Shown: positions 47,803 through 51,751 of the stretch, piece by piece | Layout of the letters: every line of letters starts with the position of its first letter | How positions within the stretch are numbered: the stretch's first letter is position 1 | Source: Pseudanabaena frigida | GTDB taxonomy: Bacteria; Cyanobacteriota; Cyanobacteriia; Pseudanabaenales; Pseudanabaenaceae | Reading direction: 5' to 3' | Length of the DNA stretch: 64,000 bases | Assembly: GCA_003242085.1 (NCBI GenBank) | Contig: QBML01000012.1 | Span: forward strand, 1 to 64,000 | Position numbers and translations under genes: made by a program | Notes under the pieces: generated by a model | Told to the model about the DNA's origin: nothing | Seen by the model: only the letters and a program-made list of their open reading frames with translations | Database searches by the model: none

Positions 47803-49101
47803 GTGCAGCGAAAAACATTACGCGACGGTGCGCTTGGCTTATTTATCATCGGTGGAGTAGTCGCACTTGGGGGCGCATTACTATGGTTACGTGGCCTGCA
47901 ACTAAGTAGTTCTAAGTTTACTTTTACGATTAAGATGCCCGATGCCAGTGGATTGAATACTGGTTCAGTAGTTAGGTTTCGCGGGGTAGAAGTTGGACGT
48001 GTAATTGCGCTCACACCACAAACCGAGGGTGTTGATGTGCAAGTTAGTATTGAAAACTCAAAATTAGTTATTCCGAAGCAGTCGGTTGCCGAAACTAATC
48101 AAAGTGGTTTTTTGGGTAATACCAATATTGATATTTTTCCTCCCAAGGAGAAACTAGCGATCGATTCCAAACTCGATCCTCTAGCTAAAGATTGCAATAG
48201 TGAATTAATCATCTGTCAGGGTGGAGAAGTTGTAGGATCTCAAGGTGTAAGTTTTATTGCTTTACTCAAGGATTCGAGTACGGCTCTCCGCAAAATCAAT
48301 GACCAAAACTTGATTGACAATCTCAACGACACCTTAGTTTCCGCAAAAGCTACAGCTCGTAGTATCCAAAAATTAACTGACTCTGCTAATCGAGTTGTTA
48401 GTACATTTGAGGGTCAAATTGTTAAATTTGGAGATACGGCGGATGCAATTAGTGGAGCAGCAACGAAAGTTGGAAATGTCGCAAATAGTGCCCAAGATCT
48501 AATCGAGGTCAACCGTGAAAAATTAGCACAAACTTTAGATGGGATTGCCGCAGCTTCTAGAGAAGCACGAGCCTTGCTTGCGACGGCAAAACCGCTATTG
48601 AATGATGGCAAGTTCATTGAAAATCTCCAAAAGCTATCCGAAAATGCCGCCGAGACCTCGGCAAATCTTCGCAAAGTATCAGGTGAATTAAACGACCCCT
48701 CAACAATTGCTTCCTTGCGTGAGACTCTTGACTCGGCGCGGGCTACTTTTGCCAATGCCAAAAAAATTACTGCCGATCTCGATGAGTTAACTGGCGATCC
48801 AAAGATTCGTAATAATATTCGCAACTTGATTAATGGTTTAGGTGGGTTGCTTTCTACTGCACCAAATCTTGACATCACATCAACTGCTAGTAATTCTCGT
48901 CCTAGCGATTCGTCTATTCCTGTAGAAGTTGCTCGCAGTAAAATCATCAAGCCTGCTAACAGCGATCGCCCCCAAAAAGACAAATCAATTGAATCTCCAA
49001 AGATAAAAATTAATAGCCCCAAACCAAGTGGAACAGTTGGTAAGTCGGAGACAACATCATCACTAGAAATTTTGAATTTTGACAGTCCGAATAAGCAATG
49101 A
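47803..49101 (+). CDS. MlaD-type MCE-domain protein
   Basis: Lipid-binding substrate receptor of the Mla-type system. About 432 residues. One membrane anchor (about 12-30), then a single MCE domain (about 38-115; ASGLNTGSVVRFRGVEVGRV) and a long helical/coiled-coil tail (about 160-355) that could form a periplasmic bundle. The GTG at 47803 follows AAGGAGG at 47786-47792 by ten bases; an ATG at 47794 overlaps the ABC stop but sits one base after that ribosome-binding site. It overlaps the NfeD-like gene by an ATGA. Confidence 0.9.
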   Translation: MQRKTLRDGALGLFIIGGVVALGGALLWLRGLQLSSSKFTFTIKMPDASGLNTGSVVRFRGVEVGRVIALTPQTEGVDVQVSIENSKLVIPKQSVAETNQSGFLGNTNIDIFPPKEKLAIDSKLDPLAKDCNSELIICQGGEVVGSQGVSFIALLKDSSTALRKINDQNLIDNLNDTLVSAKATARSIQKLTDSANRVVSTFEGQIVKFGDTADAISGAATKVGNVANSAQDLIEVNREKLAQTLDGIAAASREARALLATAKPLLNDGKFIENLQKLSENAAETSANLRKVSGELNDPSTIASLRETLDSARATFANAKKITADLDELTGDPKIRNNIRNLINGLGGLLSTAPNLDITSTASNSRPSDSSIPVEVARSKIIKPANSDRPQKDKSIESPKIKINSPKPSGTVGKSETTSSLEILNFDSPNKQ

Positions 49102-49532
49102 ACCTACCACCTAGTCAAGTTTGGCTAATTATTGGTATTGCATTATGCGTTATCGAGTTACTAGTTCCATTGCCAACTTTTTTGATAGCTGGAGCAATGG
49201 GAATTGCCGCCATATTAGTGTCAGCTGTCGCCCTAATACTTCCTATTCCAGCGCTACAAATATTAGCTTGGATGCTGATATCAGGTGCTTTAGTGAACTT
49301 ATCGCGCCGCTTCATTCCTAGAGATTCTCACCAACTTAAAGAAGCTAGTGAAGGTATCACCCTCACTGAAATTCCCGCAGGACAAACCGGACGAGTCCAG
49401 CATGAAGGAGTTTCTTGGAAAGCAAGATGTGACGATCCTAATGTAGCGATCGCAACACAGCAAAAAGTGATTATTCTGAGGCGACAAGGAAATACACTTG
49501 TAGTCGTACCTGAAAATTGGCTAAAGGAGTAG
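49098..49532 (+). CDS. NfeD-like membrane protein
   Basis: 144 residues. Three hydrophobic segments (about 8-30, 31-50 and 53-70), then an OB-fold-type domain (about 85-140: 'AGQTGRVQHEGVSWKARCDD' and 'VIILRRQGNTLVVVP'). This is the short form of the NfeD/YbbK family, known to act with stomatin-like (SPFH) proteins in membrane microdomains. It overlaps the MCE gene stop by four bases, so all three Mla-region genes form one operon. No stomatin gene is in the window. Confidence 0.9.
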   Translation: MNLPPSQVWLIIGIALCVIELLVPLPTFLIAGAMGIAAILVSAVALILPIPALQILAWMLISGALVNLSRRFIPRDSHQLKEASEGITLTEIPAGQTGRVQHEGVSWKARCDDPNVAIATQQKVIILRRQGNTLVVVPENWLKE

Positions 49533-49971
49533 GTTGTAAGTGTCGCAAATTGCCACTTTTTGTAAGATTGTTTATTGCGATAAATATTAAAAAAAAATAA
49601 TTTTCTAATCAATAGTCTCAAAGTTTTCCACAGAGTTATCCACAGATATAGCGCTTTTTTCCACAGATTAACTACAGTTTTCCACAGGCTGTTTAATCAG
49701 AAATGATGCCTTCTCCTTACTGGTTAAGGATTCATTAATAAACGAGACAACCTAGCTGGGGAAACTTTTTTAAACTTGTTTTTTGTAAAGATAAGTTAAG
49801 GGGATCGCATTAAAATTGCGATTAGTCCAAGTAGTTTTCAGCTATATATTATTTCAACTTAACTTTTCGTTACGTTGACAAGAACTGCTAGTTGAACGCA
49901 CAATTAAGTCCCGACCTATGAAAATGGTTGCGACATTCCTATAAAACTTATTTAAAAGTTGAGGTTTCAGC
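49533..49971. other. Intergenic region with candidate replication origin
   Basis: 439 bases. Contents, in order: a run of A/T (about 49578-49615), the four DnaA boxes at 49624-49686, then a mixed region up to the DUF2811 gene with no RNA or gene seen. Confidence 0.65.
49624..49686 (+). other. DnaA-box cluster, candidate oriC
   Basis: Four boxes on one strand: TTTTCCACA at 49624, TTATCCACA at 49636, TTTTCCACA at 49657 and 49678. Start-to-start spacing is 12, 21 and 21 bases (near whole helical turns). TTTTCCACA is the box form used by cyanobacterial DnaA; TTATCCACA is the E. coli consensus. An A/T-rich stretch (TAAATATTAAAAAAAAATAA and beyond) lies directly to the left as a possible unwinding element. 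dnaA and dnaN are not in the window, which is common for cyanobacterial origins. Confidence 0.7.
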
Positions 49972-50196
49972 ATGAGTACGACCATCAGCATCTTGGCAGA
50001 AATTCCTGAGGAATTGCACGAAACCCTCAAAACATATTTAGAGACACACCCTGACTGGGATCAGGATCGCGTATTTGCCGCCGCTTTATCCCTGTTCTTG
50101 TTGCAAAATGGTGGCAGCGATCGTAGTGGCGCAACCCATAGTTATCGCAGCACCGCTAAAGTGTACTTGAATGCCTTATTTCAGCATTCGATCTAA
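49972..50196 (+). CDS. DUF2811 protein
   Basis: 74 residues. MSTTISILAEIPEELHETLK and 'HPDWDQDRVFAAALSLFLLQNG' are the features of the short cyanobacterial DUF2811 family; the end is 'AKVYLNALFQ'. No function is known; the Pro-Glu-Glu start resembles ribbon-helix-helix-like proteins. It follows the DnaA-box region. Confidence 0.75.
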   Translation: MSTTISILAEIPEELHETLKTYLETHPDWDQDRVFAAALSLFLLQNGGSDRSGATHSYRSTAKVYLNALFQHSI

Positions 50197-50299
50197 GTTC
50201 AATTTGAACACTTCACAGCCGCTTAACACAGCTATAGAAAATAGGAACTCACGTTGTACTAGACTGAGAATTGATTAATCGACTTAACCATTTCAAGCT

Positions 50300-51751
50300 A
50301 TGACCACCTCTCAAGAAACTAAAGCTAGTCAACCGTTAGATGTTCTTGTCGTTGGGGCAGGAATATCGGGTTTAACGATCGCCCACGAACTGGCGATCGC
50401 TAAGCACAGACATGTCTTAGTTGCTGAAGCACAGGATCGAGTGGGTGGTGCGATTACCACGGCTAGCAATAACGAGGGTTATCTTTGGGAAGAAGGGCCC
50501 AACAGTTTTCAACCTGCACCCGAACTATTGCGCCTAGCGGTAGAGGTTGGGCTTAAAGATGAATTGGTACTGGCAGATGGCAAATTACCAAGATTCGTGT
50601 TTCTCAATGGCAAGTTAAATGCTCTACCAATGAGTCCACCGACGGCGATCGCCTCCAAGATCTTGAGTTGGGGAGGCAAAATCCGTCTAGCTTTAGGTGC
50701 TCTTGGCTTTGCGCGTCCAGCGATGGCTGGCGAAGAATCTGTCGATCGATTCTTTTCGCGTTTATTGGGGAAACAGGCTGTTGAAAGATTGGTTGCCCCC
50801 TTTATCTCTGGTGTCTATGCAGGCGATCCGAAGCGGCTCAGTGCGAAGGCAGCCTTTTCCAAAATTGCCAAACTCGAAACCTATGGAGGCTTGCTCGCAG
50901 GAGCAATATTGTCGAGCAAAGAGCGGAAAGCCCAAAAGCTCAATGACCCTAATATTCCCAAAACTAAGGCTGGTGAACTTGGCTCTTTTCGCCAAGGGAT
51001 TAAAATGCTACCCGAAGCGATCGCTGCTAAGTTAAGAGCGCAAGGGACACCAGTTAAGCAGCAATGGACGTTGCGATCGCTCCAGAAGCAAGATGAAATT
51101 TATATCGCTAAGTTCGATACGCCAACGGGTGAAGAGGTCGTCACATCGAAGTCTGTGGTTCTCAGTACACCAGCCTATGTTTCCGCCAAACTACTGCAAG
51201 ATTATTTGCCTGCTGCCAGTCAAGCGTTGAGCGAGATTTTTTATCCCACTGTTGCTTGCGTGGTGCTTGCTTATCCTAAGAGTGCATTTGCCTATGACAT
51301 GAAAGGCTTTGGCAACTTGATTCCTCGCACTCAAGGCGTGAGAACTCTCGGCACAATTTGGTCATCAAGTCTATTTGCTGGACGCGCTCCCGATGGCTGG
51401 CAACTGTTACTTAACTTTATCGGCGGTACGCTCGATCCTGCTCTAGCTCAACTTTCGGAATCTGAAATCATTCAAGCCGTACATCAAGATCTCAAGAAAA
51501 CAATTCTCCGTCCTGATACGCAAGTGGAACCAAAGACGATCGCCGTTCATGTATGGGATAAGGCAATTCCACAGTACGAGATCGGTCATTTACAACGCCT
51601 TGCAACCATCAAAGCAGAATTACAAAAATCTCAAGGATTGTACATCAGCGCTAATTTTATCGGCGGTGTAGCTCTAGGCGATTGCATAAAGCGTAGTCTG
51701 CAAGAATCGATCGAAATTGATGAGTTTCTATCGAGAACAAACTCTCTTTAA
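50300..51751 (+). CDS. Protoporphyrinogen oxidase (HemY type)
   Basis: Oxidises protoporphyrinogen IX to protoporphyrin IX for haem and chlorophyll synthesis. 483 residues, FAD-binding: 'VVGAGISGLTIAHELA' (residues about 16-32) and RVGGAITTASNNEGYLWEEGPN. Other family blocks: RLVAPFISGVYAGDPKRLS and the C-terminal 'LYISANFIGGVALGDCIKRS'. Length is normal for the oxygen-dependent type. The gene name is hemY or hemG depending on convention; not assigned here. Confidence 0.95.
   Translation: MTTSQETKASQPLDVLVVGAGISGLTIAHELAIAKHRHVLVAEAQDRVGGAITTASNNEGYLWEEGPNSFQPAPELLRLAVEVGLKDELVLADGKLPRFVFLNGKLNALPMSPPTAIASKILSWGGKIRLALGALGFARPAMAGEESVDRFFSRLLGKQAVERLVAPFISGVYAGDPKRLSAKAAFSKIAKLETYGGLLAGAILSSKERKAQKLNDPNIPKTKAGELGSFRQGIKMLPEAIAAKLRAQGTPVKQQWTLRSLQKQDEIYIAKFDTPTGEEVVTSKSVVLSTPAYVSAKLLQDYLPAASQALSEIFYPTVACVVLAYPKSAFAYDMKGFGNLIPRTQGVRTLGTIWSSSLFAGRAPDGWQLLLNFIGGTLDPALAQLSESEIIQAVHQDLKKTILRPDTQVEPKTIAVHVWDKAIPQYEIGHLQRLATIKAELQKSQGLYISANFIGGVALGDCIKRSLQESIEIDEFLSRTNSL

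Follow-up and report, generated by a model that had tools for sequence, protein, structure and literature searches.

A class-wide cluster of DnaA boxes is a probable part of the DUF2811 control region in cyanobacteria

Upstream of the gene for a DUF2811 protein in Pseudanabaena frigida, we found a cluster of four DnaA boxes that belongs to a larger arrangement: across Cyanobacteriia, the boxes are followed by an HLR1-like motif and a sigma-70-type promoter, in constant order and direction and at near-fixed spacing. These comparisons suggest that the DUF2811 gene is tied to DnaA. We consider it probable that a composite control region governs DUF2811, with the four boxes as its DnaA-binding part, and that DUF2811 serves a DnaA-dependent process; DnaA binding, control of the gene by activation or repression, and the function of DUF2811 are inferred here from sequence comparison. 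An earlier note on this DNA had offered two readings, a replication origin or a DnaA-controlled promoter for DUF2811, and the second of these is strongly supported by class-wide conservation, by near-fixed spacing to the promoter and by the loss of boxes or gene together with dnaA. Features are listed in Table 1, numbered within the window, by which we mean the whole 64,000-nucleotide stretch that was analyzed.

Table 1. Positions of the DUF2811 gene and of the elements upstream of it in the window
Feature	Position	Strand	Sequence or remark
A/T tract, left of boxes	49580..49606	.	ATAAATATTAAAAAAAAATAATTTTCT; conserved within genus
DnaA box 1	49624..49632	+	TTTTCCACA
DnaA box 2	49636..49644	+	TTATCCACA; most relatives have TTTTCCACA here
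DnaA box 3	49657..49665	+	TTTTCCACA
DnaA box 4	49678..49686	+	TTTTCCACA; anchor for spacing to HLR1 and promoter
Weak inverted box-like block	49757..49765	-	GTTTCCCCA; 2 mismatches
HLR1-like direct repeat (RpaB site type)	49782..49799	-	TTTGTAAAGATAAGTTAA on +; 2 mismatches
DUF2811 promoter	49875..49904	+	TTGACA 49875-49880, 18-bp spacer, CACAAT 49899-49904; conserved class-wide
DUF2811 gene	49972..50196	+	PF10929, 74 aa; conserved downstream partner of cluster

The four boxes are exact, lie in one direction at intervals of 12, 21 and 21 bp, and follow a stretch in which A+T reaches 85-88% in 40-bp windows over positions 49560-49619; both the boxes and the A/T-rich stretch are where the earlier note had placed them, with the spacing it gave. 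The motif TTWTCCACA has 5 matches in the window compared to 1.2 expected, a number that was reached in 0 of 100 shuffles. From the genome-wide density of boxes (128 matches in 5.39 Mb), about 4e-9 clusters of four same-strand boxes within ~63 bp would be expected per genome by chance. Apart from the shortness of the motif, nothing speaks for chance clustering, and this expectation, together with the conservation of the cluster throughout the class, leaves it a negligible probability. Beyond the last box, many relatives carry one more that is inverted and mostly degenerate, and a weak block of this kind is found in the window. Between the boxes and the HLR1-like motif there is also a block, CCTTACTGGTTAAGGATTCATTAA (49715-49738), that is strongly conserved in the genus. 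A search of positions 48500-51000 against Rfam gave no structured-RNA match at E values up to 1.

In same-genus relatives whose upstream region is available, the 12/21/21 cluster is found ~346 bp upstream of DUF2811 with all or nearly all four boxes, and this recurrence of both spacing and boxes indicates that the cluster is under selection. The other families sampled likewise have a cluster upstream of DUF2811, with a phasing of 11, 21 or 22 bp and a related AATTCTTATT block at roughly the position of the A/T tract in the window. Among 73 named genomes with enough sequence upstream of DUF2811, an exact box on the strand of the gene occurs within 700 bp in 71, and two or more occur in 63; as controls over the same genomes, the other strand gave 1/73 and the reversed motif 2/73. 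Related genomes are included in several of the counts given here. One of the two exceptions (L121) has four phased boxes with one mismatch each. In the other (L168), a transposase-like open reading frame of the IS605 OrfB type (L168:3200-3985) lies directly upstream of DUF2811, so that an insertion separates the gene from any box cluster; the lack of boxes had raised the suspicion that this genome is without dnaA, which we rejected when dnaA was found to be present. Degenerate boxes only are seen in some genomes that have dnaA (L052, L054 and L087). The genes to the left change across Cyanobacteriia while the cluster stays with DUF2811. The earlier note had proposed to check whether the cluster is conserved beside the NfeD and DUF2811 genes in relatives; the DUF2811 linkage held and the NfeD linkage did not extend beyond Pseudanabaena. 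Upstream NfeD and MlaD genes are conserved within this genus only, and NfeD was rejected as a partner in the module because its linkage is confined there.

The position of the boxes is conserved relative to the promoter as well as to the gene. Over the loci compared, the promoter takes the form TTGACA-N17-19-CACAAT and in most lies 91-93 bp beyond HLR1. Of 104 loci, 58 have 182-184 bp between the last box and the -35 element, and a further 21 have 196-197 bp, the Pseudanabaena value. The element between boxes and promoter matches the RpaB site type, for which we took the HLR1 consensus from PMC9241938: two (G/T)TTACA(T/A)(T/A) repeats with a 2-nt gap, which the window copy has with 2 mismatches. 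In many relatives this motif is exact or nearly so at a near-fixed position, and with 0 or 1 mismatch it is found in 44 of 130 loci compared to 1 of 2,600 shuffles; these totals of 130 and 104 include some loci that two tools drew from one and the same genome, so the loci are not all independent.

We surveyed 291 genomes, each at least 95% complete, for the joint presence of dnaA (found in 285) and DUF2811 (found in 284). Both genes are present in 283 genomes and both absent from 5, while dnaA alone is found in 2, both of them drafts, and DUF2811 alone in 1; the co-occurrence gives a Fisher p of ~7e-9 when the kinship of the genomes is ignored. One of the five genomes without either gene (G294, rated 99% complete) also has no rpoB match, making its absences of dnaA and DUF2811 doubtful, and they may be assembly artefacts. 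With that genome set aside, those lacking dnaA fall in three separate spots of an rpoB tree (family f35, G153 in family f32 and G159 in family f34). The DUF2811 gene was lost together with dnaA in two lineages. In two other lineages, both in f34, the gene and its promoter were kept and every box was lost. All nine f34 genomes have DUF2811, and all six that have dnaA carry boxes upstream of it. By comparison, G159 and G313 (both 99% complete) have no dnaA and no box even at one mismatch, and they retain the left-hand AATTCTTA block, the HLR1-like sequence and the promoter; a third f34 genome, G311 (85% complete), has neither a dnaA match nor boxes. G159 and G313 likely represent two dnaA losses, since the two are assigned to separate genera and some members of the genus of G159 have dnaA; this count is drawn from taxonomy, with G313 placed in no tree. 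Comparative genomics thus shows the boxes to depend on the presence of dnaA, with the co-loss resting on about four loss events.

The same data bear on whether the cluster serves some other DNA-binding protein that recognizes a TTTTCCACA-like site, with DnaA uninvolved. We found no DnaA binding data for the window site, which leaves room for such a protein, but the sites match the boxes of the genome's own oriC and share their 21-bp phasing, and they vanish with dnaA while the neighboring elements stay. We regard this explanation as quite improbable.

A reading that retains DnaA but treats the position upstream of DUF2811 as incidental is that the cluster is a site like DARS or datA, altering how much DnaA is present or which nucleotide it carries. 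Several phased boxes of one direction away from oriC would suit such a site, E. coli DARS1 and DARS2 are also found in promoter regions (PMC5835720), and loss of the boxes with dnaA is predicted equally well. Clusters away from the origin are also present elsewhere, as in the case of one 3' of guaA. However, titration needs neither a fixed direction nor a near-fixed distance to HLR1 and the DUF2811 promoter, and the loss of the gene with dnaA is left unexplained. The distance of such sites to oriC is described as conserved in E. coli (PMC5010248), whereas in closed cyanobacterial genomes the distance between the DUF2811 site and the oriC-type cluster varies over ~0.10-0.36 of the chromosome, so a conserved relative position was not found. 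On balance, we consider a DARS- or datA-like role unlikely. The cluster at the 3' end of guaA was seen in four genomes (G052, G057, G158 and G146, at ~1660-1770 of L202, L204, L211 and L217); in G146 it lies between convergent genes and hence in no obvious promoter, and it is a candidate titration or DARS-like site.

The remaining reading treats the window site as an origin of replication, either the chromosomal one, as put forward by the earlier note, or a second one, and it draws on the A/T tract beside four exact boxes. The source genome (67 contigs, 5.39 Mb) contains a larger cluster, which the note itself had named as evidence that would overturn an origin here: nine exact boxes on both strands, with 21-bp phasing, lie upstream of dnaN at C33:143720-143925 and outnumber the four in the window. 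This cluster is likely the oriC of the genome. It includes an unwinding module of two tandem boxes (TTTTCCACATTTTCCACA), a GCCC spacer and then CTACTACTACTA trios, an arrangement of box, spacer and trio that is known from the unwinding of origins (PMC8287927); of the two sites, the one at dnaN alone has such a module, and none was found at the window site. Local GC skew rises at the dnaN-linked cluster from -0.008 to +0.116, while the skew of one closed genome (G002), taken at 20 sample points only, had no clear V. The window site adjoins neither dnaN nor dnaA, which are on contigs C33 and C22, respectively, with the window on C3, and in closed relatives the DUF2811 site is 0.35-1.8 Mb away from the oriC-type cluster. 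The retention of the promoter without boxes in two genomes lacking dnaA also argues against an origin. A scan of 17 mostly closed genomes found tandem boxes at an oriC-type cluster, at the DUF2811 site and in few other places, and the reversed tandem-box pattern had zero matches. Box count, dnaN linkage and DnaA-trios lead us to reject the site completely as the main origin, and an origin of either kind is very improbable. We also observed, at C33:146326-146357, an inverted TTATCCACA pair between response-regulator and histidine-kinase genes that resembles a terminator hairpin.

The assignment of the gene product to PF10929 is secure (profile score of 96.4 bits against a cut-off of 26.6). Its AlphaFold model is poor, with a mean pLDDT of 54, and therefore gives no clue to mechanism. 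A likeness of the N-terminal half to ribbon-helix-helix proteins, noticed by eye, was set aside when no solved chain, other Pfam family or PHROG supported it. Of 172 sequences, 166 have histidine at residue 26; the others are those of G159 (counted twice), G313 and G311, plus L059 and L061. In the f34 genomes without a dnaA match, this histidine is replaced by asparagine or glutamine (L225, L226 and L222). Because L061 comes from a genome (G035) that has dnaA, the change at this residue is a hint only.

Returning to the control region that we favor, we propose that a short DnaA oligomer would form over the boxes, which are in helical phase and precede the -35 element by ~180-195 bp. From this position DnaA would influence the DUF2811 promoter, most likely through bending or looping of the DNA. 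It would do so together with an RpaB-type regulator that would supply a light/redox input, so that DUF2811 output would follow both DnaA activity and light/redox state. The DnaA-dependent process served by DUF2811 might be a feedback on replication initiation. A counterpoint is the distance between boxes and promoter, which is large for a classical repressor or activator. Since the f34 genomes lacking dnaA keep the promoter, basal DUF2811 transcription is probably independent of DnaA. In Synechococcus elongatus, binding of DnaA to oriC drops in the dark (PMC6478999); we speculate that a control region with DnaA boxes could for this reason carry a photosynthesis signal. A more tentative possibility, which we hold to be somewhat less than even, is that DUF2811 is an unrecognized cyanobacterial DnaA partner or feedback regulator that acts on DnaA or on initiation. 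If DnaA controls DUF2811 and the protein acts in turn on DnaA or initiation, the losses of the gene, of the boxes and of histidine 26 with dnaA would all be explained.

Promoters under DnaA control and box clusters away from the origin have been described in both E. coli (PMC5835720) and Bacillus subtilis, where the clusters are intergenic (PMC7198777, citing Ishikawa et al. 2007). The literature search, which had subscription papers outside its scope, returned no mention of DUF2811 and, for cyanobacterial DnaA targets, nothing on the region upstream of its gene. What appears to be new is thus a class-wide, geometrically near-fixed DnaA-box region before DUF2811 in cyanobacteria, of which the literature searched held no instance. 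A region of this kind that is lost with dnaA names a concrete candidate for a DnaA target and partner, and its DnaA sites beside a light/redox-type motif might connect photosynthesis with the control of replication. If true, a partnership of DUF2811 and DnaA could be part of what DnaA does in species able to replicate without it.

Compared to known systems, the window cluster has the box sequence and 21-bp phasing of the dnaN-linked oriC of cyanobacteria, but it is one-directional, has fewer boxes and no DnaA-trios, and has neither dnaN nor dnaA nearby. It resembles E. coli DARS1, DARS2 and datA in being an extra-origin cluster of oriented DnaA boxes, in the case of DARS also in a promoter region; it differs in its near-fixed distance to the promoter of one gene and its varying position relative to oriC. 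With RpaB/HLR1-controlled promoters it shares two (G/T)TTACA(T/A)(T/A)-type direct repeats 2 nt apart, which here precede the -35 element by ~92 bp and are combined with DnaA boxes. Like E. coli dnaA2p and mioC and the intergenic clusters of B. subtilis, where DnaA serves as a transcription factor, it has several boxes that precede a promoter at a site away from oriC. In contrast to those promoters, its target would be DUF2811, its geometry is near-fixed throughout a class, it is paired with an HLR1-like motif, and the target gene was lost together with dnaA in two lineages.
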